Both the position numbers and the translations under genes were made by a program. Source: Anaerolinea sp. (GTDB taxonomy: Bacteria; Chloroflexota; Anaerolineae; Promineifilales; Promineifilaceae). From it: a stretch of 45,738 bases of DNA. Positions 8,301 through 36,371 of this stretch are shown piece after piece. The notes under the pieces were generated by a model. That model was not told the origin of the DNA. It was given only the letters and a program-made list of their open reading frames with translations, and searched no databases. How positions within the stretch are numbered: position 1 is the first letter of the stretch; the number at the start of each line of letters is the position of its first letter. The stretch spans positions 1 to 45,738 of the forward strand of contig JACSRF010000270.1 of NCBI GenBank assembly GCA_014879875.1. The letters run 5' to 3'.

Positions 8301-8708
8301 GACAGCCAGCCCATTGTAGGCATGACGATAATAGAAGCTGACATCTACGCTGCGTCCCAGCAGGGCGTTCATGTCGGCGGCAAAGCGATCTTGTACACCA
8401 GCCAGGTATTGCTCGTAGGCCAGGCTGGCGGGGCTTCTGCTATCCAACTTGCGCGCGCCGGTAGTCAGAGGGCTGGTCGCCTCCAGGCCGGCGATCCCCC
8501 CGGTATACGTCGCCAGGGGGGCATCGGCCAATTGCACAATGTAGACAGCGGATTCTGTCTCGCCTGCGGCTTCGTTATAGACACGACTGCTGCCCGCGTC
8601 TACGGCCGTTGCATTTTCAGATGTTTGCGAGGGTTGCGCTGCGGCTGTCGCCGCAAACAACGTCGCACCGATCAACAAGAGAAGAAACTTTATAGATTTG
8701 CGTACCAT
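2331..8708 (-). CDS. S8 family serine protease, secreted, 2125 aa, with CHRD-like insertion, PA domain, Ig/BACON-like repeats and C-terminal YLPFIIKP
   Basis: Catalytic motifs IIGVIDTGINSSHPSF (Asp), DTNGHGSHTAGT (His), GTSMSSPHAAGAAAL (Ser); N-terminal signal peptide MVRKSIKFLLLLIGATLFAATAAAQ. Confidence 0.95.
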   Translation of the reverse strand: MVRKSIKFLLLLIGATLFAATAAAQPSQTSENATAVDAGSSRVYNEAAGETESAVYIVQLADAPLATYTGGIAGLEATSPLTTGARKLDSRSPASLAYEQYLAGVQDRFAADMNALLGRSVDVSFYYRHAYNGLAVFLSPAEAARVAEMDGVLLLYREREEEILTDAGPDFIGAPELWGGSYTDRQYAATLDGSQEVPPNASTASGTGTFAYNLLTKQLTWNIAHDVAAPTAAHIHSGAVGVNGPIQVPLDHTVNPMVGSATLTDAQQGMLVNQLLYVNIHTAAFPGGEIRGQIVPTGSMGEGIIIGVIDTGINSSHPSFAAVGGDGYIHTNPYGAGNYVGYCATNPGFCNDKLIGAWALHTSSTNPEDTNGHGSHTAGTAGGNFLQDPVLYAPTATYTFTAVSGVAPHANIIAYQVCFPSCPTSSTTAAVNQAVVDGVDVTNYSISGGTNPYVETTAVAFRNAVAAGVFPANSAGNSGPGAGTVGHQGPWIMTVGAGTHDRAILNSVVDLTSSSGPLPDILGQSPTVGYGPAPLVYAGDPPYNNPLCNPFPAGTFTGQIVVCDRGAIGRVAKGQNVLDAGGGGMILLNDAPSAASLNDDTHVLPATHISYADGVILKAWLATGTGHMGRITGGAVDYNSMYGDNMASFSSRGPAGSTVPGLANLIKPDVSAPGLNILAPYFAGFTTPPSFNIISGTSMSSPHAAGAAALIRALNPTWTPAEVKSALMMTGITAVDKEDGVTPGDPFDFGGGRIDLTTASYVGFVLDITDAEYVAADPAIGGDPRLLNLPSMADNNCAGSCSWTRTLRSTLGTAQEYNAAVTGPAGFSGTVTPANFTIPAGGTQVITIAVEIASGTLNAWTFANVSIQPVTRAMTDVTAAHMPIAVIPTDFIEQPGISLAKTVGTSSATCAVTDAITVPAGTAVTYCYTVANIGNVTLNLHDLDDSELGSILNGFPFALDPGASVFITQTVTLTETTVNFATWTAYNAGPIDVVTATDTATVTIGIPDPPNIFVDPLAVSSDQNPDTQTQHVVTINNTGGSDLIWQIFEEPATRPAARPLFPATPVGFNSEAAVAAEIAGLEIGAPLAVIQPSLEARALAKRALLTTGILLAPDSTNDRIMALDPITGDVIDPDFVPQNAVVGTGIHAILSASGDSILLSDQIGDVVHEFDLDGAYLGVFAPAGGANTAIMDNIRGISLDASGNLLVTVGGGANVDAVVMFDTAGNHLGNFIANGAGGLDNPFDVYGRSSDWLVGGIDSDAIHRYDPTGAYIANLTPVNTFPEQIAEAGNGNVLVANFSPSTEEGVLEYTAAGAFVGRYDPAGLGGYRGVYELPGGTILTTTGTGVHEIDRSGNLVQSKITGISGRFIEYVVIQTGCNDLADIPWASVTPDSGTTATGAATNVTVTLDSTGLTPGDYSGNLCFFSNDPDAGPGNETDLVIVPLSLTVLQTQFATIELTKTVGTEAAVCATTSEITVDSGDVVYYCYEVSNTGDVPLPLHDLVDDQLGTIFTGFAYNLQPGESVNTVAAGLTISQTIYLTTTNTAVWTAYDGVSFTATASDSATVNVNVAQIGVAPSSLSSTQAPNTVHTETLTISNNGSASLAWSIVEAGTVFAPHSPAVVLYDNGPLVTHPGGGAGGADDSRLQNSTLLMTTLGFGNQFAVGNRMADEFVVDDSGWILDTVTFFAYQTGSTTASTITGVYVQIWDGPPNDPGSSVVFGDLTTNRMVSTGWSNIYRTSETSIGNTTRPIMANVVDLGGLFLPAGTYWFDWTTDGTLTSGPWAPPITVVGQTTTGNALQFTGTWGAANDGGSLTQQGMPFVIEGSLASACGDPEDIAWLSVSPDSGSTAVGSSSDVTVTFDSAGLMGGTYSATLCVHSNDPFQPLVEAPVTLTVESVYGVELTAAQTELSGATGTTVTYTLTLTNTGTNTDTFDLAATGVWTTTLSESSVTLASGSSTQVAVTVAIPADAADGEMDAAEVTAASQTDPAATADVTLTTTAVVVSMYGVELTAAQTGLSGAAGTTVTYTLTLTNTGTNTDTFNLTATGAWTTTLSESSVTLAAGGSTTLVVTVIVPADAEDGDEDAAVVTAASQTAPMVTDSVTLTTTAVAAEPPMSYIYLPFIIKP
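2377..3023 (-). repeat. Tandem pair of about 108-aa (about 324-bp) Ig-like/DUF11-like domain repeats at the C-terminus of the S8 protease (approximate bounds)
   Basis: GVELTAAQTELSGATGTTVTYTLTLTNTGTNTDTFDLAATGVWTTTLSESSVTLASG... repeated as GVELTAAQTGLSGAAGTTVTYTLTLTNTGTNTDTFNLTATGAWTTTLSESSVTLAAG...; high nucleotide identity. Confidence 0.85.
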
Positions 8709-9390: not shown

Positions 9391-12300
9391 TCAGGTCAAA
9401 GGTGACTTCCGCGGCGCGGGTGATAGCGATAAGATCATCGTCCTCACCGCGCCAGATGCCACCTGATCTTCCGAGACAGCTAAACCATTAACCGTATTAG
9501 TCACCGTCAGCGTCAGCGGCACTTCCACCAGTGGAGCCACCGGGTCGTTACTGCTGATGCACAACGTCGTCGTGTACACGCCTATCGCCAGGCCCGTGCT
9601 GTCGAAGGTCACATCCAGATCAATCGCGTCGCCGCCGGGCAGCGTACCACTGATCGGCGTCACCGTCACCCACGGAATGTCCACCGGCGCACTGCAGGTT
9701 GTCGGCGCCGCGCTTACATACTCCACGCTGTCTATACCGATGTAGTTGGAGTTTGAGCCAGACGGACCCCCATTGGTCACGAAGTAACGGAAAGCAAAGC
9801 GCCCGGTTGTTCCGTTCGGAATACCGCTCAGGGTCACGCTGAACTGCGTCCACACCTCAGGATAACCACCGGACACCAACGACGGGTTCACCGAGACCAG
9901 TAAGGTCGTGAAGTCCCCCACATCTGTAGCCAGCGTGCCCACGTTGGTGCTCGCTCCCGCCGTGCTCAACCGCAGTTCCAGCCGATCCGGCCAGCTGCTG
10001 CCCGTCGTTGTGCGTGTCCAGAAGCTGAAGGTGTCGCCATCATACAGCGTCAGTTCCGGAGTTAACAGCCAGTTGCTGATGGTGCCGACCCCGGCCGTAT
10101 TGTTGAAGTTCGCGCCAATGTATGCCGTGGGGGCGCCCGCGTGCGACGGAAAGACTGTATTATTCCCCTGGAACCAGTTCGTCGTACCCAACGGGCTGCT
10201 GTTGTTCTGCGCAAACCAGCCCGGCAGATTGGTGATGTCATCAAAACCTTCGGTGAAATCACCCATCAGTGCATAGGCCACAGGTCCCGCCTCGGCAGCG
10301 GCACTCGCGCCCCGCTGCCCAGCGCTGCCCGCAGCCGCAGGCGCCAACTGTGGTCCAAAACCGGCCGCAGGCGGATCCCAGGTGTACGCATCCCATACCA
10401 GGTCGCTCTCGCCGGTGTTGCTGATGGTCAGCGTTTGCGTGACTTGCGTATCGGCTACCTGGGTGCTGCTCACCTCCGCCGGGTCAACGACAATGGTGGG
10501 CGGGGTGCCAGTAACAGTCAGTTCCACAGGGACAACCACCAGGTCCGTTCCATTGCCGGGGCCGGGATCGGGATCATTGCTGGTGATACACAGATTGCCA
10601 TTGTAAACGCCATCCGTCAGACCGTTAGAGTCGAGCGTCACCTGAACCGAGGTGGCAGCGCCAGGCGCGGTCGTTCCATTGGTTGGCGTCACGCTGGCCC
10701 ACGGAATGTCGCTGGGCGCATCACAAGGCGGCAGCACAGTGACATCAACCAGGCTCATATCATCGTAATAAATCACCGAAGCGTTATTGGCATACAGGTC
10801 CACTGTGCCAATGCGCACCGCGCCGTTGCCGCTCACCTGTCCACTCCAGGTACCGGAGTACAACAGTTGGTTGTTGTAATAGAAAGCGCCGGTATCAGCG
10901 CCCAGGTCAATTTCGAGCCGCAGTTCGACCCACTGGCCGCGGATCAGCGGCAAGGAACCACCAGAGACGCCGCCATCATTCACCACCTGGTTCGTACCGC
11001 CGTTGATCATCACCTGGACTGACCAGTTGAGGCCGGTACCGGCGTCGTTATAGGTGTTGAGCATGATGAAGTAGGATTGGCCGGTGAAGTCATTGGGCAC
11101 GTACTGCCAGGCTGTGTAGACCCACTGCCCACTGGTCTCGTTATACTCATGCACCAGGTCAGAAGCGCCGAGGATGGCCGCCGAATTGGGGGCGCTGCGC
11201 GCTTGGGCACTGCTAGTCAACGCGCCGGCTGTTGGATCATTGAACCAACCTTTCCAGCCACCCTGACCGTGCAGTTGGCTGCCGGTGGCGTAGCTGTCGA
11301 AGTCGTCGTCCCAATCCACGAGAACGGCCGCTTCTGTGCCATCCTCGAAGATGTCCCAGGTCAGGTCAGCCTCGCCATCATTGCCGATATCCAACGTATG
11401 CTGGGTTGTCGTGTTCACCGCCTGTGTACTCGACAGGCTCAATGGATCCACATCAATGTTCGGCGCTTGCCCGACCGTCAGGGTAACGGGCACTTCTACC
11501 AGAGGCGTATCTGGGTCGTTACTGGTAATGCAGAGCAGCGCCGTGTAGTCGCCAAGCGCCAGGCCAGTAGAGTCGAAACTGACGGTGACATTGCTGCTGC
11601 CGCCGGCGGCCGTCGTCCCACCTGTGGGCGAGGCGCTCAGCCACGGCACATCGGCCGGGCTGTCACAAGCCACATTCGCCATACCAAAGCCACGCACCAG
11701 CCAGTTACCGGCAAACTGTGCGCCAAACGAGTCAATAATGCCGAAAGTCGGCAGCGGCAACACCGGTGGGTCACCAGGCACTACGCCGAAACCGGCCCAC
11801 GAACGCATCTGGCTACCAGACGACTGGTCAATCACTGCCGGGAAGGTCCCGGGAGTGACGCCAGCAGTACGATTGACCACCGCAATAAGAATGTCACCAG
11901 GGCCATTGAATGTCACTGGCGCAGCCAGGGTATAGGTGGACCAGGTAACGCCATCAACCGCCTGTACAGCCTGATTGGTCAGCGAGGCGCGATGAACGGC
12001 GCCGTTGGCCGGATTGCCGTCAGCATCTTCGTAGAGGTAGATATCCACCAGTTCGCCCACGTTAATGCCACCCGTGCTCGCAGGATAGCCAAACATCACG
12101 TCCACCTGATCCAGGACGACAGGGAAGCTACCCGCACTGGGGCTGAAACGGTTGAGCCAGAGGAACTGCGATCCACCAACGCCAATGGCATTTTCACCCG
12201 AACCATCATCAACGGCCAGCACAATGGGCGCATCATCCGGCGCATCCGGTCCTGCGCCTGACAGTTCCAGGCGAATGGATAGAGGCGCTTCAACAATGCT

Positions 12301-15300
12301 CCAGGTCAATGGCGCCGTCCCGACGTTCCCGATGGTCAACGCCTGGGTCGTGGTGGTGTCGGGGGGTTGAGAAGCAGCCATGCTGGTTGGGCTGACATTG
12401 ATGTCCGGTTCCGTATCGGTTGGGATAACCACCACCGGGATGTTGGTATCGGAAGCCGGTACCGCTGCCGGCGGTTCACTGGTCACCAGTACGTCGTCAA
12501 TCCACCAGGTATGGGCGGACTCACCACCATAGCGGAATGCCAGACAAACGCTTTGACTATCATACGCGCTTAGATCAATGACTACTGGATCATCTCGCCA
12601 GGCGTCAGCGGGAATGTCAGACGTCTCCAGCAGTTCGACGAAGTCGCCATCAGCGGGATCACAGCTACCCGTCGAGATCCAGACACCGCTATAGCCATAG
12701 TCTGTAGTCGCCATCGCCGACACCAGAGAATCGCTCTCCCCTGAGTCGCCTTGCGATGTCGTCGCCGGGCGGGTGATGAACGGCAAGTAGACGTAGGACA
12801 TGGGCGTGGGTGGTTCGGGGAAGTGACCACGATCAACATAGCTCAGGGTGGAGCCGATCAGGTTAAGCGGTGGCGTTACCAACCAATCATCCTGATCGCC
12901 ATCAGCAGAGCCACCATACATACGGCGTGCAGAAGCTGGTGCGCTGTTGGATTGGTCTGTATCACGTACCCATGTGGACGTACCACTACCTTGCAACTTG
13001 TATACAGCCCAACCTGCAGGCGGGAAGGTCTCGTCTGTGAAAGCTTCAGTTAGCAGATCAACCATAGGCGCTGGGCCACTATCAGTTGGCCAGGTCGCGT
13101 CCGTCTCCAAGGTAATACTACCAAAGGCAAAGGTGTCCAGTGGCAAACCGGTCACATCAGCGGTGATCGTCAGAACCTGTTCTGCTCCAGGAGCGATGGT
13201 GAAGGTGCTGGGGGTAACCGTGACATTCATCCCCACCGGGCCGGAGAAGGTAGCGGTGTAGGTCGCCGAGGTAGACAGGACACTTTTAACGGTGCGCGTC
13301 CAGGTGCAGGTGTCAGAGCAGTTGTAGTTGACCACACTGGGTTGGTTCAACGTCTTGGGATCGCCGCCCAGGGCCGGGTTGGCCGCGGCATAGTTGGCGC
13401 CGGTCTCGTCGAACACCAAACCCACCGTGCTCGCGCCACCCAGAGCCAGCAAGCCGGAGCCTACGTCAAAGGGATCGGCCGGCGTGACGCCATTGTCTTT
13501 CAGCAGGCCGCCAACGGCCGTTGAAGCCATGGCCGATTTAATTTCTGCCGGGGACCAGGAGGGATGCAAGGCTACCATGAGCGCCGCCGCGCCCGCACCA
13601 TGCGGGGAGGACATGGAAGTGCCCTGGTAGAAGGCGTACTGTGCCGGGTCGCCACCGGAAGAGGCCACAGCCGCCAGAATATTCACGCCTGGCGCAATAT
13701 AGTCTGGCTTGAGGATTTCGTACTGACTGGGGCCGCGCGAGCTAAATCCGGCCACGATGTCTTCCCAATCGTTATTGACCATGTAGGATGTAGCCACGTT
13801 GACGCGCGCTGTCGCGGTGGGGTTGGCAACAACATAGTCGCGCAGGGCAATACCATCCTCTAAGTCTAGCATGAAGGCCGGGGGCGTACCGGTCAGGCCA
13901 CCCATGCTGATGGGCGGGCCACCCACGCTGTTGAAGACCACCACACCAACGGCGCCCGCATTGGACGCATTGGTCACTTTGACAGCAAATGTACAGCCAC
14001 CGCGCTGGATAAGCGCCAACGCGCCGTTGAAGAAACCAGCGGGGAAAGCGGTACAACCGGTGTTATTGGTGGCGTCATAACGGATCGGAGCAGTGATGTC
14101 GGCCAGGATAGATGTGAGTTCACCGGGCACGGCCGCCAGGCTTTGCAGCTCAGGGGGTGTGGTCGGGCCGGTCACATCCACGGTATTGGCAATGACGCGG
14201 TTAATGGTGCTGGCCGCCACGGCCGCATTCCAGGGGCCAGTCTTGGCGACGGTGCTGGGGCCAGGGCCAGCATTACCGGCGGAGGCGGAGACAAAGATAC
14301 CGGCGTTGCTGGCATCCAGGAAGGCAATGTCAACCGGGTCGTTCCAGGGGCTGTCGCTGCCGGAGATGGAGTAGTTGAGCACGTCCACCTGATCGGTGGC
14401 AATGGCCGAGTTCACGGCTGCCACGCTGGCTGTACCGGGGCAAGAAGGATTACAAACCTTGTAGGCCACAATGTTCGCCCGCGGAGCAACGCCCTGCAGG
14501 TCAATGTTGTAGGTAGTGGGGCCAATGTCGAAAGTCGCGGTGTGGACGTTGCCGCCGGAGGTGCTGGCGGTGTGGCTGCCGTGACCGTCGGTGTCCTCAG
14601 GACTGCCGCCCACCGGGTTCAGGCCATAGGCCGCAATGAGCTTGTCATTGCAGAAGCCGGCATTGGCAGCGCACCAGCCGAGGTAAGTGCCCGCGCCATA
14701 GGGATTGGTATGGACATACCCGTCACCATCCGTAGCCGCAAAGGAGGGGTGCTGCGAGTTGATGCCGGAGTCAATGACGCCAATGACGATGCCCTCGCCA
14801 CGAGTAGCTGTACCGGAGCCGGTGTCGCCACCCCAAATGGCGGGTGCGCCAATGTGCAGGGGGCCGACTTCGGTTTCCAGTTCGCGCAGGGTGTCGCCAT
14901 AAACAGCAGCAACGCCGGGCAACCCGGCAACAACGGCCGCTTCCTCATGGCTCATGGCGACGGCCATCCCGTTCAAAGCAGCAATATAGTCAAAGGCCAC
15001 TTCCACCGAACGTCCTAAGGTTTGTTCCATGGTGACCGTGAACTGGCTATGCTTTTGCGTGAGATAGTCCGTATAGGCCAAAGCCGCAGGAGCATTCGCA
15101 TCCAATTTACGCGCGCCGGTTGCCTGTGGGCTGGTCGCCTCTAATCCGGCAACACCACCGGTGTAGCTGGCCAGCGCCGGTTCCGTAAAGCGCACAATGT
15201 ACAAACCTGTTTCGCTAACGCCATACAGATTCGCTGCGTTCTGGCTCTCGGCGACAAGCCCGGCGCTGCTGGGAGCGCTGGTTTCCGCCGTTGCCGATAG

Positions 15301-15378
15301 AGTCGTAAGGGTGACAGCTATAAGCGCTAATAAAGTCACTGCTGTCAAAATCTTAAAAACTCGTGATTTCGTTTTCAT
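9391..15378 (-). CDS. S8 family serine protease, secreted, 1995 aa, PA domain, choice-of-anchor/MAM-like and Ig/BACON-like repeats; C-terminus apparently frameshifted
   Basis: VIGVIDSGINSQHPSF, DTDGHGSHTASTSGG, GTSMSSPHGAGAAALM; signal peptide MKTKSRVFKILTAVTLLALIAVTLTTLSATA. Confidence 0.93.
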   Translation of the reverse strand: MKTKSRVFKILTAVTLLALIAVTLTTLSATAETSAPSSAGLVAESQNAANLYGVSETGLYIVRFTEPALASYTGGVAGLEATSPQATGARKLDANAPAALAYTDYLTQKHSQFTVTMEQTLGRSVEVAFDYIAALNGMAVAMSHEEAAVVAGLPGVAAVYGDTLRELETEVGPLHIGAPAIWGGDTGSGTATRGEGIVIGVIDSGINSQHPSFAATDGDGYVHTNPYGAGTYLGWCAANAGFCNDKLIAAYGLNPVGGSPEDTDGHGSHTASTSGGNVHTATFDIGPTTYNIDLQGVAPRANIVAYKVCNPSCPGTASVAAVNSAIATDQVDVLNYSISGSDSPWNDPVDIAFLDASNAGIFVSASAGNAGPGPSTVAKTGPWNAAVAASTINRVIANTVDVTGPTTPPELQSLAAVPGELTSILADITAPIRYDATNNTGCTAFPAGFFNGALALIQRGGCTFAVKVTNASNAGAVGVVVFNSVGGPPISMGGLTGTPPAFMLDLEDGIALRDYVVANPTATARVNVATSYMVNNDWEDIVAGFSSRGPSQYEILKPDYIAPGVNILAAVASSGGDPAQYAFYQGTSMSSPHGAGAAALMVALHPSWSPAEIKSAMASTAVGGLLKDNGVTPADPFDVGSGLLALGGASTVGLVFDETGANYAAANPALGGDPKTLNQPSVVNYNCSDTCTWTRTVKSVLSTSATYTATFSGPVGMNVTVTPSTFTIAPGAEQVLTITADVTGLPLDTFAFGSITLETDATWPTDSGPAPMVDLLTEAFTDETFPPAGWAVYKLQGSGTSTWVRDTDQSNSAPASARRMYGGSADGDQDDWLVTPPLNLIGSTLSYVDRGHFPEPPTPMSYVYLPFITRPATTSQGDSGESDSLVSAMATTDYGYSGVWISTGSCDPADGDFVELLETSDIPADAWRDDPVVIDLSAYDSQSVCLAFRYGGESAHTWWIDDVLVTSEPPAAVPASDTNIPVVVIPTDTEPDINVSPTSMAASQPPDTTTTQALTIGNVGTAPLTWSIVEAPLSIRLELSGAGPDAPDDAPIVLAVDDGSGENAIGVGGSQFLWLNRFSPSAGSFPVVLDQVDVMFGYPASTGGINVGELVDIYLYEDADGNPANGAVHRASLTNQAVQAVDGVTWSTYTLAAPVTFNGPGDILIAVVNRTAGVTPGTFPAVIDQSSGSQMRSWAGFGVVPGDPPVLPLPTFGIIDSFGAQFAGNWLVRGFGMANVACDSPADVPWLSASPTGGTTAAGGSSNVTVSFDSTGLALGDYTALLCITSNDPDTPLVEVPVTLTVGQAPNIDVDPLSLSSTQAVNTTTQHTLDIGNDGEADLTWDIFEDGTEAAVLVDWDDDFDSYATGSQLHGQGGWKGWFNDPTAGALTSSAQARSAPNSAAILGASDLVHEYNETSGQWVYTAWQYVPNDFTGQSYFIMLNTYNDAGTGLNWSVQVMINGGTNQVVNDGGVSGGSLPLIRGQWVELRLEIDLGADTGAFYYNNQLLYSGTWSGQVSGNGAVRIGTVDLYANNASVIYYDDMSLVDVTVLPPCDAPSDIPWASVTPTNGTTAPGAATSVQVTLDSNGLTDGVYNGNLCITSNDPDPGPGNGTDLVVVPVELTVTGTPPTIVVDPAEVSSTQVADTQVTQTLTISNTGESDLVWDAYTWDPPAAGFGPQLAPAAAGSAGQRGASAAAEAGPVAYALMGDFTEGFDDITNLPGWFAQNNSSPLGTTNWFQGNNTVFPSHAGAPTAYIGANFNNTAGVGTISNWLLTPELTLYDGDTFSFWTRTTTGSSWPDRLELRLSTAGASTNVGTLATDVGDFTTLLVSVNPSLVSGGYPEVWTQFSVTLSGIPNGTTGRFAFRYFVTNGGPSGSNSNYIGIDSVEYVSAAPTTCSAPVDIPWVTVTPISGTLPGGDAIDLDVTFDSTGLAIGVYTTTLCISSNDPVAPLVEVPLTLTVTNTVNGLAVSEDQVASGAVRTMILSLSPAPRKSPLT

Positions 15379-21146: not shown

Positions 21147-22211
21147 TTAGTTTACACGATGCCTAAAGCGAAACAGTGGTTTACGGCCGTTCCCATGCCC
21201 ATTTGTCTCTGGGTGATAATACCGCTGTACCATGGGCGCGGAGGCCGTAATTCCTTGTGATTCGAGAACGGCCGTCAACTCCGGTAACGGCCGTCGTAGA
21301 TGATGAACCGTATGCTTCACCATAACTGCCTGGCTGCCCCAAAACACAAAACCGCACCGCCGCAACACCCCTTGCAGCCAGCTCTGGTAGCGTGGCACCG
21401 AACAAAACAAAGGATGATTCTGCTTGCGCGACGCAAGTCGCAAAGCGGCCTGAGTAATATCTTCGGCGCGTGACTCGGCATTAGGGTGAATAAACAGGCG
21501 CAGCCAGGTGGCCGTTTCACCAACATTCAAATGGACAAATGCTGTCAGTTCATTTTTTTCACGCAGCACCCATGATTTCCCCGTTTCTAATGGGGGCAGT
21601 GGTTCCACCAACTGCACCAAACGGGGGACGATATTTGCATACAACAATTGTATATCCCAATCATCTGCAGGACGGCGCAACTGCAAGGCCATTGTTAACC
21701 CGTCGTCGTCACTGACCTCTTCACGCCCATCTAAAACCCAAATATCTTGCCGCGTGTAAACGGCAAAGCCAACCTGACGCAGCAGAGGCAGTTCTGGGCC
21801 AGTTTCGCTGACTTCGGCCACCAAACTATGGATACCATGCTGTCCAACTTCCATCACCGCCTGTTCCAGTAATGGCAGCCAGACGTCCTCATTCACAAAC
21901 GGGTTATGGGTTTCATTGGGTTGAGGGGCGACGGCCGTCTGCGTCACCGCTGCATTTACTGTAGACCCTATATAAAGAATATGACCACGATGATTCTCTT
22001 CCTTGAGATGCAACTGGATAAACCCGGCGCCATCTCCATCTCCAGCTTTCCACACATACGTCGGAAATTCACCCCCAATAAACAAGTTGAACAAAGCTCC
22101 ACGCAGAGGATGCACATCATTGATCAGCGCTGATTCTGAGTGGAGCGATACCCCATGTTCACTTAAGCGCAATACAAGGGGCAAATCACGCAAGTGGAAA
22201 GGACGTAACAT
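21147..22211 (-). CDS. GNAT-like N-acetyltransferase
   Basis: MLRPFHLRDLPLVLRLSEHGVSLHSESALI...; two acetyltransferase-like halves. Start at 22211 chosen. Confidence 0.55.
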   Translation of the reverse strand: MLRPFHLRDLPLVLRLSEHGVSLHSESALINDVHPLRGALFNLFIGGEFPTYVWKAGDGDGAGFIQLHLKEENHRGHILYIGSTVNAAVTQTAVAPQPNETHNPFVNEDVWLPLLEQAVMEVGQHGIHSLVAEVSETGPELPLLRQVGFAVYTRQDIWVLDGREEVSDDDGLTMALQLRRPADDWDIQLLYANIVPRLVQLVEPLPPLETGKSWVLREKNELTAFVHLNVGETATWLRLFIHPNAESRAEDITQAALRLASRKQNHPLFCSVPRYQSWLQGVLRRCGFVFWGSQAVMVKHTVHHLRRPLPELTAVLESQGITASAPMVQRYYHPETNGHGNGRKPLFRFRHRVN

Positions 22212-22331
22212 ATAAGGGTAAGTGTAGCAGTGGGCACACACGGAGGCAAGCAGCAATGGACTTTATGCAGGAAACATAAATTCATGGCAAAATAGAGATA
22301 TTACAAGTTACCCAAGTAAGGAGAAGTGTCT

Positions 22332-22766
22332 ATGTCCACGTTAATACTTACCTTGCGTGAAGGCATTCGCTACCGTGGCCGCAGCGGTCATTGGAGCTGG
22401 ATCGCCCATCGCCTCTCTGGCCTGGCTATCCTGTCATTTCTGGTCATTCACGTGTGGGACACGGCCAACGCGACCTACGCGCCAGAAATTTACGCCTGGT
22501 CCATTGAAATTTTTAAACATCCATTGTTTGGCATTGGTGAAATTGGGGTGATGGCGGCCGTTTTGTATCATGCGTTTAACGGCATCCGCATCACGCTGCT
22601 GGACTTCAAGCCAGAGTGGTGGAAATATCAGCAAAAAAGCGCCCTGTTCGTCTGGGTCATCTTCTTCGTCATTTTCATCCCCATCGGTCTGTACATGTTC
22701 GTGGGCATTGTCACCCACTGCGGCGAAGTGAACTGCTGGGCGCTGCCCCCCTTCCCCACATCATAA
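22332..22766 (+). CDS. sdhC: Succinate dehydrogenase cytochrome b subunit
   Basis: GRSGHWSWIAHRLSGLAILSFLVIHVWDT...LYHAFNGIRITLLD; first gene of sdhCDAB. Confidence 0.88.
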   Translation: MSTLILTLREGIRYRGRSGHWSWIAHRLSGLAILSFLVIHVWDTANATYAPEIYAWSIEIFKHPLFGIGEIGVMAAVLYHAFNGIRITLLDFKPEWWKYQQKSALFVWVIFFVIFIPIGLYMFVGIVTHCGEVNCWALPPFPTS

Positions 22767-22769
22767 AGG

Positions 22770-22796
22770 GTAACCCAGGGCGCTGACCTGGGTTAC
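22770..22796 (+). repeat. 10-bp-stem hairpin in the sdhC-sdhD gap
   Basis: gtaacccagg-gcgctga-cctgggttac. Confidence 0.75.
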
Positions 22797-22814
22797 ATTG
22801 ACAAGGAGCAACTG

Positions 22815-23219
22815 ATGACAACTGTATCTGGTATTACTCATCGTAAAGTCCAGGTTCGTTCCAATTTAGAGCGATATGGCTTTATGTTCATGCGTTTGTC
22901 GGGTATTTCGCTGCTGGTGCTGGCCGTCGGCCATATGGTCATTCAGCACGTCCTCAACAGCGTCCATAACCTGACTTTGGAATTTGTCGCCTTGCAGTGG
23001 CAATCGTGGGGATGGAAGGCGTATGACATGCTGCTGTTGGCCTTTGCCATCTCACATGGCGTCAATGGGCTGCGCAACGTGTTGGGCGATTACATCCACA
23101 ACGACAAAACGATGAAATTCATCACCTATTTTCTAGCCGCCTTTGTCGTCATCACCATCATCTGGGCCGGCGTGGCGATTGCCAGCTTTGACGCCGGCAA
23201 GGTTTTAGGCAGCAATTAA
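22815..23219 (+). CDS. sdhD: Succinate dehydrogenase membrane anchor subunit
   Basis: Three-TM protein with [20 protein letters not shown] and [14 protein letters not shown], between sdhC and sdhA. Confidence 0.85.
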
Positions 23220-23235
23220 AAAAGGATTTCCACAC

Positions 23236-25020
23236 ATGGCAACTGTAAAAACTCACACTTTTGACGCCGTGATTGTTGGCGCGGGGGGCGCGGGTCTGAT
23301 GGCGGCGTTGTACGCCAGCCGCAGCGCCAATGTCGCGGTGTTATCGAAGCTGTATCCCACCCGTTCGCACACCGGCGCGGCGCAGGGCGGCGTCGGCGCG
23401 GCTTTGGGAAATATGGAAGAGGACAAATGGGAATGGCACGCCTATGACACGGTGAAGGGGTCAGACTATCTGGCAGACCAGGACGCCGTTGACGTGCTGT
23501 GCCAAGAGGCAATTGATGTGGTCATTGAACTGGAGCACATGGGGCTGCCGTTTGACCGTTTCCCCAACGGCCGTATCTCTCAACGTCGCTTTGGCGGGCA
23601 TACCAACAACGACACGCAAAAACCGGTGATGCGCGCCTGCCACGCGGCTGACCGCACCGGCCACATGATTTTGCAAACCCTGTACCAGCAGTGCATCAAA
23701 CACAACGTCAACTTCTATGACGAATTTCACGTCGTTGACCTCATTCGCGTGGGCGACAGCGTGCGCGGCGTGGTCGCCGTGGAAATTGCGACCGGCGATT
23801 TCCACATCTTCCACAGCAAGGCGGTCATGTTCGCCACCGGCGGGTGGGGGCGCTGTTGGGAAGTCACCTCCAACGCCCACTCGCTCACCGGTGATGGCGC
23901 GGCCATTTGCCTGCGCCGGGGCATTCCCTTGCAAGATATGGAATTTTTCCAATTTCACCCCACCGGCATTTTCAAGCTGGGCATTTTGATTACCGAAGGG
24001 GTGCGCGGCGAAGGCGGCGTGTTGCTCAATGGCAAAGGGGAGCGTTTCATGACGAAATACGCCCCCACCATCAAGGATTTAGCCAGCCGCGATGTGGTCA
24101 GCCGCGCCATTTACCTGGAAATACAGGCAGGCAACGGCGTCAATGGCAAGAACTACGTCCACCTGGACATCACGCCGGAAACGGTGAACCGCTATTTGGC
24201 CGAAGATGGCGAAACGCGGCGCATTGATCGGGAGTACATTGAAGCCAAGCTGCCCGACATTGCCGATTTCACGCGCACTTACCTGGGGGTAGACCCGGTC
24301 AAGGAGCCGATGCCGATCCAGCCGACGGCGCATTATGCGATGGGCGGCATTCCGACAGATGTAGACGGCCGTGTCCTGCTCAACGCCGATAAAGAAGTGC
24401 TGCAAGGTATGTACGCCGCCGGGGAGTGTGCCTGCGTCTCGGTGCATGGGGCCAACCGACTGGGCACAAACTCGCTCACCGACCTGGTCGTCTTCGGCCG
24501 CCGCGCCGGGCAGCACATGGCTAAATTGGTGCAGACCATTGACCTGGAACCGTTACCGGCCAATGCCGCCGCTGAGGTCATCGCCGCGTTTGAGCGCATT
24601 CGCCACAACACCGGCGCGGTGAAGCCATATGAACTGCGGCAGCAAATGCAGCAAGCGATGACCACCGGCGTCAGCGTTTTCCGCACCGAGCAAACGATCA
24701 GCAAAACGCTGGACACGCTCAACCAACTTCGCGCCGCCTACCAAAACATTCAAATTCAAGACAAGGGGAAGGTATTCAACAGCGATTTGTTGGAAGCGTG
24801 GGAGTTGGGCTGCTTATTGGAGTTGGCGGAGGTCACGGCCGTTTCCGCTCTGGCGCGTCAGGAGAGTCGCGGCGGCCATGCCCGCGATGACTTCCCCAAC
24901 CGGGACGACCAAAACTGGCTGACGCACACCCTCTGCCACAAAGACGCCGACGGCCAATATCGCCTGACCTACAAACCGGTGACATTGGGCCGCTATCAAC
25001 CCAAGGCGCGCGTTTACTAA
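23236..25020 (+). CDS. sdhA: Succinate dehydrogenase flavoprotein subunit
   Basis: [71 protein letters not shown]. Confidence 0.97.
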
Positions 25021-25153
25021 ACCGTGAACCGTAAGCCGTAAGCCGTGAACCGTGAACCGTAAGCCGTGAACCGTGAGCCGTGAACCGTATACGGACAACG
25101 GACAATGGATTACGGATTACCGATTACGGATTACCGATTACGGATTACGGGCA
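25021..25153. repeat. 19-unit perfect-phase heptamer array between sdhA and sdhB
   Basis: ACCGTGA ACCGTAA GCCGTAA GCCGTGA ACCGTGA ACCGTAA GCCGTGA ACCGTGA GCCGTGA ACCGTAT ACGGACA ACGGACA ATGGATT ACGGATT ACCGATT ACGGATT ACCGATT ACGGATT ACGGGCA = 133 bp, no indels. Confidence 0.95.
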
Positions 25154-25169
25154 ACCAGGAGACGAAACC

Positions 25170-25895
25170 ATGCAAGTTGAACTACGCATTCGCCGCTTTA
25201 ATCCAGAAAAAGACAAGAAACCGTGGTGGGGAGAGTACACGCTGCAAAACGTGGAACCCACCGATACCGTCCTCGACCTGCTCAACCGCGTGAAGTGGGA
25301 ACTAGATGGCACGCTCGCCCTGCGCCGCTCCTGCGCGCATGGGGTTTGCGGGTCCGACGCCATGCGCATCAATGGCGCCAACGGGCTGGCGTGTAAAACG
25401 TTGGTGCAGCGGTTGGCCGCGCCGGGCGCAACCACCGTCAAGCTGCAAGTGGAGCCGATTTTAGGGCTGGCGGTACTCAAAGACCTGATTGTGGACATGG
25501 AACCCTTCATGGACCATTACAAATCGGTGCTGCCGTATTTCATCAACGACAGCCCCCCACCGGCCGACGGCCGTGAGCGGCTGCAATCCCCCGAAGACCG
25601 CGCCCGCTTTGACGATACGACCAAGTGCATTCTGTGCGCGGCGTGTACGACCTCCTGTCCGAGCTTTTGGGCAAACGGCCGTTACGTCGGCCCCGCCGCC
25701 ATCGTCCAGGCGCATCGCTTCATCTTCGACAGCCGCGACCAGGCCGCCGGCGACCGGCTGCAAGTGGTGGGCGACACGTTCGGCGTCTGGCGCTGCCGCA
25801 CCATCTTCAACTGCACCAACGCCTGCCCCCGCGACATTGAAGTGACCAAAGCCATCGCTGAGGTCAAGCACGTCATCTCCACCGGGGAGATTTAG
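25170..25895 (+). CDS. sdhB: Succinate dehydrogenase iron-sulfur subunit
   Basis: SCAHGVCGSDAMRINGANGLAC (2Fe-2S) and CILCAACTTSCPSFW...CRTIFNCTNACPRDI. Start MQVELRIRRFNPEKD preceded by aggaga. Confidence 0.95.
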   Translation: MQVELRIRRFNPEKDKKPWWGEYTLQNVEPTDTVLDLLNRVKWELDGTLALRRSCAHGVCGSDAMRINGANGLACKTLVQRLAAPGATTVKLQVEPILGLAVLKDLIVDMEPFMDHYKSVLPYFINDSPPPADGRERLQSPEDRARFDDTTKCILCAACTTSCPSFWANGRYVGPAAIVQAHRFIFDSRDQAAGDRLQVVGDTFGVWRCRTIFNCTNACPRDIEVTKAIAEVKHVISTGEI

Positions 25896-25993
25896 TGACC
25901 GGTGATCGGTGAACGGTAATCGGTAATCGGTAATCGGTTGACCACCGACTACCGATCACCGGTCACTGACCACTGATCACCGATTACCGATTC
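25896..25993. repeat. 14-unit heptamer array with sense and inverted halves between convergent sdhB and GH-like gene
   Basis: TGACCGG TGATCGG TGAACGG TAATCGG TAATCGG TAATCGG TTGACCA CCGACTA CCGATCA CCGGTCA CTGACCA CTGATCA CCGATTA CCGATTC; 15-bp perfect inverted repeat TGACCGGTGATCGGT / ACCGATCACCGGTCA. Confidence 0.95.
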
Positions 25994-27729
25994 GGGTCTG
26001 CCTCCACCAGGATAAACGGCCGTCCCCCAATCGGGTAAAATTCCGTCAACGTGCCATCGGGGAAGGTGTTGCGGTTCGTCGCGCCGGGCAAGTAGATGGT
26101 ATAGACCCCATTTTGCGCGGTGATGGTTTGCGCGCTGCCAGTGGGCGCGACGAGGAGGGCCGTGCCGGTAGGGCTGGTGGCGGGGATGACGGCCGTTTCA
26201 CTTTCCGCACACAACGCCCATAACCCCACAACACGTCTTCCGCTCCCTGGCTGATAAAAGGCGATCCACTCCTGTCCCGGCGTCGCCACATTCCCCGGCC
26301 CCATGCACTTCGGGCTGCCCGGGCGCTGCCGCCAATACGGGTAAACGTCGGTGACGTAAGTCGTCAACACCCGATAGGCCGCCAGGCTGTCGCGCGCCGT
26401 CTCCGGCTGTGGGTGCTGCGCAAAACAAGTGGCGTCGGTCGGGTTGCGGTACAGACCATTGGCGTCACCGGCGCATGGCAGGCCGTTCCATAGACCATTT
26501 TCGTCACACAACTCCCCATTGTGCGGCGGAAAATTGGTCCCGGCCGGTTGGTTGCCACAGCCATCATAAAGCTGAAAGTGAAAAATGGCGTCCGCCCCGG
26601 CGAACAGGGCATAGAGGGCGCTCTGGATGATGTAATCCGCCTGCTCGCTCTGTGTGGCGCGCGCGCCGCTTTGCGCATCCCAGATCGGGCCGGGGTAATC
26701 ATTCCACACCGCCACCCCCGACTCATTCAACCAGATTGGTTTGCTCAGTCCATGATCGCGCATGGTCCGTTCGGCGCGCCAGACGTGGTACCAGGATTGC
26801 CAGGCGTAAAAATAGCTGTGCGTGGCAAAGATGTCGTGGTAATACCCATGCGCGGCGGCCATTGCATCCTGGTCATAAATGGCAAGCACATCCGCATAGT
26901 AGCTGAGATAGGCGAAATTATTGGCCATCCCGGCAAACAAGATTTGCGCGTTGGCGTCCGCCTGTTTGGCGCTGAGGTAGGCCACTTTGAGCAGGCGCGC
27001 ATAGTCGGGCAGCGTGCCATCCCAAAACCAGACCAGGTCTGGCTCGTTCCACACTTCCCAATGGGTAATGCCCACGCCGGCCCCCCAACCCTGCTGCTGC
27101 GCCAACACGCCACCCGGTTTGTAGCGAGAAACGGCCGTGAACACAAACCCCGCCCACTTATTCTCCGGGTTAATTTGCTTGCCGGGGCCAGGCACGTCGC
27201 TGCCATCCGTGAAAATAGGCGCATACACCCCCTGCGGCGTGGCGCTGTTAATGGCGCTGATACGAAAATTGCGCAGCGACTCTGGACGCGCGGCATCGTT
27301 CGCTTGCGCCAGGCGCGTGGTGTAAAAGCCAGGCGTGCCTAGCAAAATGGCATTGATGCGTAAGCCATGATTGATGTCGTCCAGCACGGCCGTATCTTGC
27401 GTGGACCAATCATACACCCCCGGCGACATCTCTACGTGAAACCAATACAACGGCCAGCGATCCCAGGCCGCGCCGGTAGCCAGGCCATTTTGAAACTGCT
27501 GCGCATCCGCTTGCTGTTCGGCCGAGGTGATAAAATTGACCCCATACAGCGGCGCTGTCACCGGCGGCGGTGGCTGCGGCGCGCGCGGCACAAAGGGGAA
27601 AAACAGGGTATAGCTGTCGCTGCGCTCATCAGCGCGCACAATGGCTAACAAGAGTAAGATGAGGCAGGTGGTCAGGAACAGGGAAAACGGCCGTAGCCCA
27701 ATTGCTTGCAAAAACGGTAATTTCCTCAT
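25984..27729 (-). CDS. Secreted glycoside-hydrolase-like (GH39/cellulase-like TIM barrel) protein
   Basis: MRKLPFLQAIGLRPFSLFLTTCLILLLLAIV signal/TM; HWEVWNEPDLVWFWDGTLPDYARLLKVAYLSAKQADANAQILFAG (WNEP motif); KPIWLNESGV. Start moved to 27729 because the track ORF start overlaps the tRNA. Confidence 0.75.
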   Translation of the reverse strand: MRKLPFLQAIGLRPFSLFLTTCLILLLLAIVRADERSDSYTLFFPFVPRAPQPPPPVTAPLYGVNFITSAEQQADAQQFQNGLATGAAWDRWPLYWFHVEMSPGVYDWSTQDTAVLDDINHGLRINAILLGTPGFYTTRLAQANDAARPESLRNFRISAINSATPQGVYAPIFTDGSDVPGPGKQINPENKWAGFVFTAVSRYKPGGVLAQQQGWGAGVGITHWEVWNEPDLVWFWDGTLPDYARLLKVAYLSAKQADANAQILFAGMANNFAYLSYYADVLAIYDQDAMAAAHGYYHDIFATHSYFYAWQSWYHVWRAERTMRDHGLSKPIWLNESGVAVWNDYPGPIWDAQSGARATQSEQADYIIQSALYALFAGADAIFHFQLYDGCGNQPAGTNFPPHNGELCDENGLWNGLPCAGDANGLYRNPTDATCFAQHPQPETARDSLAAYRVLTTYVTDVYPYWRQRPGSPKCMGPGNVATPGQEWIAFYQPGSGRRVVGLWALCAESETAVIPATSPTGTALLVAPTGSAQTITAQNGVYTIYLPGATNRNTFPDGTLTEFYPIGGRPFILVEADPNR

Positions 27730-27784
27730 ACTGGCAATGGTAGCAGCAACAGCAGCAAGTTGCCATGAAGAATGTGTGTACACA

Positions 27785-27814
27785 AAAGAGGCAAGCCTGA
27801 CGGCTTGCCTCTTT
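27785..27814 (-). terminator. Intrinsic terminator after tRNA-Arg
   Basis: aaagaggcaagcc-tgac-ggcttgcctcttt: perfect 13-bp stem, T-run on the minus strand. Confidence 0.8.
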
Positions 27815-27823
27815 ATTCCTGTG

Positions 27824-27895
27824 TGCCCCTGCCGTGACTCGAACACGGGCTTCCGGCTTCGGAGGCCGACGCTCTATCCACTGAGCTACAGGGGC
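27824..27895 (-). tRNA. tRNA-Arg (anticodon CCG)
   Basis: Reverse complement GCCCCTGTAGCTCAGTGGATAGAGCGTCGGCCTCCGAAGCCGGAAGCCCGTGTTCGAGTCACGGCAGGGGCA: 7-bp acceptor, anticodon loop CTCCGAA, T-loop TTCGAGT. Confidence 0.93.
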
Positions 27896-27946
27896 TTGCG
27901 AGGAGTGATTTTGCCATAGGGCCGGGGAAATGTCAAATGGTGGTCC

Positions 27947-29500
27947 CTATGCTTCCTCCATTTCGATGGTTACTTCAACCGGGGCGGGCTGTGCGGACGG
28001 GATACGGCCGTACAAATCCGTTATTTCACGCAGGTAATATTGAATTCTGTCGTCGAGCATGTCCGGGGTGTAGCGCCAGCGCCAGTAGCCGCCCACTTTG
28101 CCGGGGAAGTTCATGCGCGCTTCGCCGCCAAGCCGCATCAGGTCTTGCAGGGTGGCAACGGCCGTATCCGCCACCGACATCCACGCCAGCCGCACCATGT
28201 CCCAGGCAATGTTGCGCCCATCCACCGACAGGTAACGGCGGATGTGGTCCCGTTCCCACTCGTCGGCGCTGCGATACCAGCCAACCGTTGTGTCATTGTC
28301 ATGCGTGCCGGTGTATACGACGCAGTTCGGCGTGCCGAAGTGATGCGGCAAAAAGTCACTGTTACGCTCGCCACCAAAGGCAAATTGCAAAATTTTCATG
28401 CCGGGGAAATCAAACTGATCGCGCAGCGCGCGCACCGATGGCGTAATGACCCCCAGGTCTTCGGCAATAATGGGCAGGTCGCCCAACTGGTCGCGCATTT
28501 TTTGGAAAAAGTGAAGACCCGGCCCTTTCACCCAACGCCCGACCATCGCCGTCGGCTCTTCCGCCGGGATTTCCCAGTAAGCATCGAAGCCGCGGAAATG
28601 ATCAATGCGCACAATATCGGCCTGGGTAAAGGTCATTTGCAGCCGTTTTACCCACCAGGCGAAATCATCCTGCGCCATGCGCGACCAACGGTAAAGCGGA
28701 TTGCCCCAACGCTGCCCGGTGACGCTGAAATAGTCCGGTGGCACACCGGCGATGAATTCTGGCGAACCATCGGCGTGCAAATAGAACAAGTCGCGGTTGG
28801 CCCACACGTCGGCGCTGTCGTAAGCGACAAAAATGGGGATGTCGCCGACAATTTTAATATCCCGGTCGTTGGCATATTGCTTCAGAGCGAGCCACTGCTG
28901 GAAGAAAAGGAACTGTAGGAATTTATGCCGCTCAATTTCGTCGGCCAATTTTTGGGACCACTGCTGCATAGCCACTGGCTCCCGCCGGGCGATGTCCGTC
29001 GGCCAGGTGTTCCAGACGCCCCCTTCGTGATCCGCATGGTAATTTTTCACGGCCATGAAGAGGGCAAAATCATCGAGCCAGAAGGCTTGTTCCTGACAGA
29101 ATTGAGCGAAGGCGGCGCGCTGGACGGCCGTCCCCGCTTGCTGAAAATGCCGGTGCGCCTGGGCAAACAAGCTGTTCTTGTAAGCGATGACCGGCCCGTA
29201 ATCCACTTCATGTACTGGAAAGGAGGGGGCGTATTGGACGGCCGTTGCCGGTAAATAGCCATCAGCGACCAGCCTGTCCGGGCTGAGCAACAACGGATTC
29301 CCGGCAAAAGCGGAGAAGCATTGGTACGGCGAATCAGCGTAGCCGGTCGGCCCCAACGGCAAAATCTGCCACAGCGATTGCCCGCTCGCCACCAAAAAAT
29401 CAACAAATTGATACGCAGCTTCCCCAAAATCGCCAATACCATAGCGACTGGGGAATGATGTGGGGTGTGCTAAGACGCCTGCGGCACGTGGAAATCTCAT
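27947..29500 (-). CDS. malQ: 4-alpha-glucanotransferase (GH77)
   Basis: GVLAHPTSFPSRYGIGDFG, SPYQCFSAFAGNPLLLSP, VRIDHFRGFDAYWEIPA, IIAEDLGVITPSV, YTGTHDNDTTVGWY. Confidence 0.95.
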   Translation of the reverse strand: MRFPRAAGVLAHPTSFPSRYGIGDFGEAAYQFVDFLVASGQSLWQILPLGPTGYADSPYQCFSAFAGNPLLLSPDRLVADGYLPATAVQYAPSFPVHEVDYGPVIAYKNSLFAQAHRHFQQAGTAVQRAAFAQFCQEQAFWLDDFALFMAVKNYHADHEGGVWNTWPTDIARREPVAMQQWSQKLADEIERHKFLQFLFFQQWLALKQYANDRDIKIVGDIPIFVAYDSADVWANRDLFYLHADGSPEFIAGVPPDYFSVTGQRWGNPLYRWSRMAQDDFAWWVKRLQMTFTQADIVRIDHFRGFDAYWEIPAEEPTAMVGRWVKGPGLHFFQKMRDQLGDLPIIAEDLGVITPSVRALRDQFDFPGMKILQFAFGGERNSDFLPHHFGTPNCVVYTGTHDNDTTVGWYRSADEWERDHIRRYLSVDGRNIAWDMVRLAWMSVADTAVATLQDLMRLGGEARMNFPGKVGGYWRWRYTPDMLDDRIQYYLREITDLYGRIPSAQPAPVEVTIEMEEA

Positions 29501-31006: not shown

Positions 31007-31041
31007 GTAGTCAGTAATCGGTGGTCAGTAGTCAGTAATCG
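31007..31041. repeat. Five-unit heptamer array upstream of glgA
   Basis: GTAGTCA GTAATCG GTGGTCA GTAGTCA GTAATCG; GTCCCTG direct repeats at 31001-31007 and 31050-31056. Confidence 0.85.
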
Positions 31042-35486: not shown

Positions 35487-36371
35487 ATGAAAACAGATTC
35501 GCTCTTCCACGAACTCTTACAACTGGCCCCAAGAATCTTATTCGATTTGTGGCAAATTGAGCCTGACTGCGCCTACACCTTTAGCAGCCCGGTCATTAAA
35601 GCGAGTGAACGGCGTTTAGATGGCGTGTTGGAACCGGTTGAGCCGGGGCGCCGCCGCTATTTTGTGGAAATACAAGGTTATCGGGATAACGCAATCTACT
35701 GGCGCGCTGTGCAGCAAATCGGTCTGTTTCACGAACAACAAGCGCACCCGGAGCCAACTGATTGGCAGGCTCTATTTCTCTTTCTGGACAAAACCTTCGA
35801 TCCGGGACCGGAGAGTTTGGGACGGTTGTATCACCCTGATAGCGATTGGTTTTTGCGTGGTTATGTGGCTGAGTTGTTACAGAAAGTGAAACGGCCGTCG
35901 CCGATGTTGAATGTATTGCGGCCACTTCTTGCGCAGCATGAGCAAGAAATACGCCAGCATGCCCCCACCTGGGCGCAAGAAATCCGTCATTTACCAGATA
36001 TAGACGAAGCAGCGCAGGTGAAAATGCTGCGTCTATTGGGTCAGTTCATTGGGCGAAAGTTTATCCACCTGACCAATGAGGAGATAGAAACGATGATTGA
36101 GTTAGCGCCACTGGAAGAAACGGCAATGGGTAAAGAATTGATTCAGCAGGGAATTCAGCAGGGAATTCAGCAGGGAATTCAGCAGGGCGTACAAGCCGGG
36201 CAGGTTGAGGTGCTGGCCGAGCTAATCGAACAAAAATTTGGCATTCCGGCCACCCTGGTAAGCCTCAAACTGGCGTATGTCCCTGTCACCCGCCTGAAAG
36301 CGCTAAGCCGGTACATTCTCGAAGCAACCACGTATCAACAAATTGAGGCGTGGCTGGCGGCCGAAGGGTAA
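35487..36371 (+). CDS. DUF2887-like PD-(D/E)XK nuclease-type protein with DUF4351-like C-terminus
   Basis: MKTDSLFHELLQLAPRILFDLWQI..Y.F.SPVIKASERRLDGVLEP...RRYFVEIQGYRDNAIYWRAVQQIGLF; C-terminal VTRLKALSRYILEATTYQQIEAWL. Confidence 0.75.
   Translation: MKTDSLFHELLQLAPRILFDLWQIEPDCAYTFSSPVIKASERRLDGVLEPVEPGRRRYFVEIQGYRDNAIYWRAVQQIGLFHEQQAHPEPTDWQALFLFLDKTFDPGPESLGRLYHPDSDWFLRGYVAELLQKVKRPSPMLNVLRPLLAQHEQEIRQHAPTWAQEIRHLPDIDEAAQVKMLRLLGQFIGRKFIHLTNEEIETMIELAPLEETAMGKELIQQGIQQGIQQGIQQGVQAGQVEVLAELIEQKFGIPATLVSLKLAYVPVTRLKALSRYILEATTYQQIEAWLAAEG
36141..36188 (+). repeat. 12-bp in-frame tandem repeat, about 4 copies
   Basis: (ATTCAGCAGGGA)n encoding IQQGIQQGIQQGIQQG. Confidence 0.95.

Follow-up and report, generated by a model that had tools for sequence, protein, structure and literature searches.

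The spacer between sdhA and sdhB in the window, which is the whole 45,738-nt stretch analysed, carries an array of heptanucleotide units that is not an isolated oddity; it is one of an estimated 800 or so arrays in the same genome. The arrays were classed with the heptanucleotide intergenic repeats. Heptamer repeats near stop codons are already known in Xanthomonas, Nostoc and Beggiatoaceae, and the polarity, the repertoire of several units and the structure-keeping replacement reported here were not found in the literature searched. The source genome (G000) is a 6.9-Mb metagenome-type assembly of 680 contigs, and the window is one whole contig of it. Genome-wide numbers were obtained from a 0.9-Mb sample and from pattern counts over the whole genome, with genes called by a simple dicodon caller, not taken from a curated annotation.

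Arrays of the sdh genes

The flavoprotein gene of succinate dehydrogenase, sdhA (23236-25020, plus strand; 594 aa; Pfam PF00890, E = 2.5e-106, and PF02910, E = 6.2e-46), ends with a TAA codon (25018-25020) whose position is kept in nearly all relatives. As stated in a preliminary description of this DNA, the array at 25021-25153 consists of 19 units of 7 bp with no phase slip, and its first base lies directly after the sdhA stop codon; period 7 was also found with TRF. The division into two unit classes was upheld as well, with ten units of the [AG]CCGTRA type and nine of the ACSGATT/ACGGACA type. The ten units, delimited by sequence and TRF, form the 5' arm (25021-25090, plus strand), the tenth reading ACCGTAT. 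Two ACGGACA units lie near the hairpin turn (25091-25104, plus strand), followed by seven ATGGATT/ACSGATT/ACGGGCA units which form the 3' arm (25105-25153, plus strand) and pair with the 5' arm in the RNA fold. The long imperfect hairpin proposed earlier was recovered on folding 25018-25172 (-57.4 kcal/mol, z = -6.4; 0 of 200 shuffles equally stable). The units keep the phase of the sdhA stop codon, and those of the 5' arm become TRA-NCC-G if read from that codon. The array was correctly placed just before the sdhB ribosome-binding site: three bases separate its end from AGGAG (25157-25161, plus strand), presumed to be that site from the Shine-Dalgarno consensus and intact between the array and the sdhB ATG at 25170. 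The iron-sulfur subunit gene sdhB (25170-25895, plus strand; 241 aa; Pfam PF13085, E = 2.1e-31) ends with TAG, and sdhC and sdhD were confirmed alongside sdhA and sdhB by Pfam search.

A second heptamer hairpin (25896-25992), found by repeat search and RNA folding, occupies the gap from sdhB to a convergent gene (25984-27711, minus strand; 575 aa; no Pfam family); neither this array nor the register of the sdhA stop codon was in the preliminary description. The 5' arm of the second array reads TGACCGG TGATCGG TGAACGG (TAATCGG)3 and its 3' arm is of the ACCGATC/ACCGATT type, giving a near-perfect fold (-55.0 kcal/mol, z = -6.9). The stop codon TAA of the convergent gene (25984-25986) doubles as a unit of this array. 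No T-tract was found behind either array of the window. In an Rfam scan of 22000-28000, the sole match at gathering score was a tRNA gene (27824-27895, minus strand, 70 bits) adjoining the convergent gene; miRNA models matched the arrays with scores far under the cut-off. Elsewhere in the window, a short run of degenerate GTAGTCA heptamers lies between ORFs (31007-31037) and is possibly a third array, a perfect 12-bp tandem repeat (ATTCAGCAGGGA, 3.9 copies, 36141-36187) lies within an ORF, and two very long ORFs occupy the minus strand (2331-8708, 2125 aa; 9391-15378, 1995 aa).

Abundance, anatomy and polarity

Lag-7 periodicity between genes, which had been proposed as a check against shuffled controls, was hugely enriched genome-wide, with 105 segments in 0.906 Mb of G000 and 0 in order-2 Markov shuffles. 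Other lags from 4 to 13 gave 0-8 segments each in the same 0.906 Mb, and lags 14 and 21 were harmonics of lag 7. A sample of 0.494 Mb chosen without regard to hits contained 57 array loci, 46 of them intergenic; this density of ~115 per Mb, scaled to the genome, yields the figure of about 800. Among all sampled loci, 104 of 120 were intergenic, though G000 is 81% coding. Three consecutive CCGTRAN units were matched 287 times across the whole genome, and the reversed pattern 0 times. Several unit types coexist in G000 (TRANCCG, TRATCGG, TGACGAG, TGAAACG, AATCGTA/CA and others), the most frequent units being TAATCGG, TAATCCG and TGAACCG; alignment of units on the stop triplet gave the common form TRA-[TA]-[CG]-[CG]-G. 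Both in G000 and in relatives, the GTRA core is constant and the 7-nt spacing fixed while NNN is free between neighboring units. The first bases of contigs C19, C21, C25, C55 and C129 of G000 lie inside long perfect CGGTAAT arrays; it is therefore probable that assembly breaks at such arrays and that counts of the longest ones are too low. Separate from the arrays, a dispersed element of ~90 bp (TAGGATTTACGATTAACGATTTGCGATTTACGATT ... ACATCTATA) with a MITE-like look occurs in G000 in 40 copies of 91-100% identity (e.g., L181:4420-4509, L122:4165 and, in reverse, L158 near 11061), with a heptamer run at its beginning and often TA before it.

The general plan of an array is a 5' arm of TRA-NNN-G units, a loop and a roughly complementary 3' arm, although about one third of intergenic arrays do not form one simple hairpin. 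Most units contain one stop triplet and, 7 not being divisible by 3, a stop in each unit blocks every reading frame within 21 nt. The stop-bearing arm came first in 24 of 24 two-arm arrays of a sample; a search of all of G000 matched the stop-first pattern 26 times, with overlaps, at 14 loci, and never its reverse. The simple hairpins of relatives were pooled with those of G000 (138 in all); more stops were read inward than outward in 101, fewer in 23 and equally many in 14 (p = 7e-13), and the same excess was present in the relatives alone (43:10, p = 5.6e-6). Stops made up 63% of inward-read units vs. 17% of outward-read units.

Arrays have their start at the upstream gene's stop codon or within its 3' end, and leave the following ribosome-binding site intact. 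In codirectional spacers, the nearer landmark was the upstream stop in 62 cases and the next start codon in 21, and overlap with the downstream start codon hardly ever occurred. For about 40 genes, the own stop codon falls 1-23 nt inside the array. An in-register stop one period downstream of the gene stop was present in 56 of 118 period-7 cases, and 3-7 cases fell at each of the other offsets; genes ending in TAG had TAG-bearing units in 12 of 21 in-register stops, and other genes in 2 of ~153. This register is partly automatic where a gene reads into an array. At the sdhA site, 6 of 11 distinct arrays across relatives were in register against an expectation of 1 in 7 (p = 0.002; the count includes one array, L242, scored by eye). 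With the position of the sdhA stop codon conserved, this register favors seeding at the stop codon, or insertion by microhomology with it.

Exchange of arms between loci, for 22 two-arm arrays of G000, showed that native arm pairs fold no better than swapped ones, so that pairing is not fine-tuned locus by locus in G000, and locus-specific pairing in that genome was rejected on this result. Permutation of unit order within unselected arrays had a weak effect (means of -0.9 and -1.8 kcal/mol, p about 0.01); a strong effect of unit order, seen only with arrays picked for folding, was likewise discarded.

Replacement among relatives and comparison with known repeats

The sdhA-sdhB spacer of related genomes, whose alignment had been suggested in the preliminary description, was short or occupied by other 7- or 8-nt arrays. 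In 30 such spacers of the family, 13 did not exceed 30 nt, and among the 17 longer ones 12 contained 7/8-nt arrays or array-like hairpins, mostly with other units. Whole arrays were replaced among closely related genomes. G002 and G023 have flanks 95.8% and 96.6% identical and, after sdhB, hairpins of CCGTAAT vs. GATGCGT; G022 and G044 have flanks 92.7% and 92.9% identical and hairpins of GGGGTAAT vs. AGATTGGG; further swaps were found, flank identity ranging overall from 92 to 97%. At a swapped site, the new array differs in its 7- or 8-nt unit but still forms a hairpin and still lies between the stops on either side. Octamer arrays of like anatomy (L203:6122-6284, L200:1523-1563, L248:5554-5615) occur in relatives with units that include TAGTCAGG, GGTAATTG and AGATTGGG; periods 7 and 8 dominate there, and 6, 9 and 10 are nearly absent.

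The load of arrays differed sharply within a genus, as the pattern of four TRANNNG units gave 1222 hits in G000 vs. 14 in its congener G001 (reversed control 18). Together with the 13 short sdhA-sdhB spacers, this difference implies that no single site needs an array. The pattern was present in 84 of 400 Chloroflexota genomes, the same class being over-represented. A second congeneric pair, G130 and G162, had 160 vs. 1 hits.

The preliminary description did not recognize a named repeat family. The heptanucleotide class is nonetheless not wholly without names (STRR or long simple sequence repeats in cyanobacteria and Xanthomonas, and TAACTGA repeats in Beggiatoaceae). The STRR or long simple sequence repeats of Calothrix, Nostoc and Xanthomonas, with units GGGAATC and GGGGA(C/T)T, lie near ORFs in Xanthomonas and Nostoc, most of the downstream ones <50 bp from the stop and on the coding strand, and differ between species (PMC4692102). 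The arrays of G000 resemble them as degenerate 7-nt tandem units in many dispersed intergenic copies. Unlike those repeats, which have a single G-rich unit interpreted as forming G-quadruplexes, G000 has many unit types, a stop triplet per unit, a fixed order of the two arms, stop register and replacement of the unit type; GGGAATC and GGGGA(C/T)T share no sequence with the commonest G000 units. Anabaena plasmids are reported to have no such heptamers (PMC4692102), and 250 kb of a Trichormus plasmid held too few arrays for a cyanobacterial comparison.

The TAACTGA repeats of marine Beggiatoaceae, cyanobacteria and Bacteroidetes resemble the G000 arrays in being heptamers whose every unit contains a stop codon; their overlap with a gene end is thereby limited to about 18-21 nt (at most 18 nt in PMC4679880). 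In the founding genome they form 2-6 copies, mostly just before starts, with no predicted hairpin, related heptamers are rare as repeats, and ribosomal protein S1 and the Csp or Csr families have been proposed as binders (PMC4679880). They are one fixed sequence located mostly before starts, whereas the G000 arrays are nearer to the upstream stop, and TAACTGA was absent among the 25 most common G000 units.

REP and BIME sequences are palindromes scattered through a genome, behind stop codons and within operon spacers; their role in mRNA protection serves as a model for the likewise located hairpins of G000. REPs have a conserved sequence and a dedicated transposase, whereas G000 arrays differ in sequence site by site and the genome has few Y1 transposases; no conserved palindromic consensus was found, unrelated unit types occurring in one genome and at one site. 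Intrinsic terminators are similar in being hairpins behind the last gene, and arrays are found after sdhB where relatives have terminators, but the arrays lack a T-tract, have a long stem of tandem units and occur inside operons too. As each comparison fails on a tested feature, the arrays were not filed as REP, TAACTGA repeats or intrinsic terminators. A search covering mainly non-subscription journals yielded no paper that connects Chloroflexi with heptameric intergenic repeats or Ardenticatenia with tandem repeats.

Origin and function of the arrays

Canonical terminators were less frequent in spacers with an array than in those without, both codirectional (6 of 124 vs. 50 of 357) and convergent (3 of 40 vs. 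33 of 144), a scarcity which is partly trivial because arrays take up space. A hairpin with a T-tract was present at 9 of 164 gene ends with an array. After sdhB, as judged by eye, array-free relatives mostly have a T-tract hairpin and array-bearing ones usually have the array only. This pattern and the lower frequency of canonical terminators in array spacers favor a function in transcript punctuation. There is about an even chance that the arrays are stop-anchored heptamer hairpins, born of slippage and copying, which punctuate transcript 3' ends and operons without a T-tract. Slippage of repeats, in many cases starting from a stop codon, would create the arrays and drive their turnover, with one arm probably copied into the other alongside slippage. 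The transcript hairpin may then act as a 3'-end structure that punctuates the message. In the sdhA-sdhB spacer, the upstream message would be protected by it against 3'-5' decay, and sdhB may be partly uncoupled; behind sdhB and at other operon ends, the array could replace a T-tract terminator. With stops in all three frames, ribosomes approaching from either side would not enter the stem.

The interchangeable arms and the weak matching of unit order make a mutational origin filtered by selection a close rival. It is a serious possibility, short of probable, that the arrays are largely neutral or selfish repeats, made by slippage in 7-nt steps and by hairpin-mediated template switching, with selection purging only those that damage genes; survival behind stop codons would follow from each unit giving stops in every frame, and the halt of arrays before ribosome-binding sites from the need for those sites to stay. 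Rapid turnover of whole arrays amid flanks 92-97% identical, the unequal load in two genomes of one genus, swapped arms that match as well as native ones in G000 and relatives that do with short array-free spacers all agree with neutrality, as does the heptamer excess in many bacteria, tentatively ascribed to the polymerase footprint (PMC4692102, PMC4679880). A filter alone, however, predicts neither hairpins with the stop arm first after replacement in codirectional spacers nor the tendency of arrays to replace terminators, and GTRA is kept while NNN varies among neighboring units, unlike in plain slippage.

The constant GTRA core, variable NNN and fixed 7-nt spacing would also suit a repeated recognition motif, and readers of this kind were proposed for the TAACTGA repeats of Beggiatoaceae (PMC4679880). 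That the units are RNA or DNA binding sites for a protein reading 7-nt-spaced GTRA motifs is nevertheless improbable, since the several units in one genome, the 8-nt spacing in relatives and the arrays without GTRA (AGATTGGG) are incompatible with a protein that reads a single fixed sequence. Movement of the arrays by a transposase with hairpin substrates, as in the REP/RAYT system, is more improbable still: their hairpin shape, 3'-end location and dispersal fit it, as does the heptamer start of the 40-copy ~90-bp element, but Y1 transposases (PF01797) number 0-8 per genome (4 in G000, 0 in G023, 0 in G010) with no visible relation to load, and the arrays have no common flanks or fixed consensus and differ in unit type at one site. 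A role of TAGGATTTACGATT-type arrays as transposon terminal repeats was rejected, the DNA between two of them being ordinary host genes. An assembly or binning artefact is scarcely credible; the assembler does break inside CGGTAAT arrays, where several contigs end, but the sdhA-sdhB array is mid-contig with unique flanks, and comparable arrays occupy the same site in independently assembled relatives.

A broader version of the punctuation reading is offered tentatively, as possible but rather unlikely: an active process would write stop-anchored tandem hairpins of 7- or 8-nt units behind genes, the arm with the stops leading, and would rewrite them wholesale with another unit type, and these would act as a two-sided terminator and translation barrier without a T-tract in much of this Chloroflexota family and class. 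Gene ends can undergo rewriting without harm, as every unit has its own stop codon and a 7-nt step leaves no frame open.

Although heptanucleotide repeats in bacteria have been on record for decades, there is no agreement on their origin or function. Here, one genome combines around 800 arrays with several unit types and a strict polarity, and the hairpin swaps at one site in close relatives are clean natural experiments, so that both what writes 7-nt arrays and whether arrays punctuate transcripts become testable. The gap in load between G000 and G001, and between G130 and G162, is a natural contrast for finding an array-driving gene. If active rewriting is true, punctuation in these bacteria would be free in sequence and kept in anatomy, close relatives having the same hairpin in different words.
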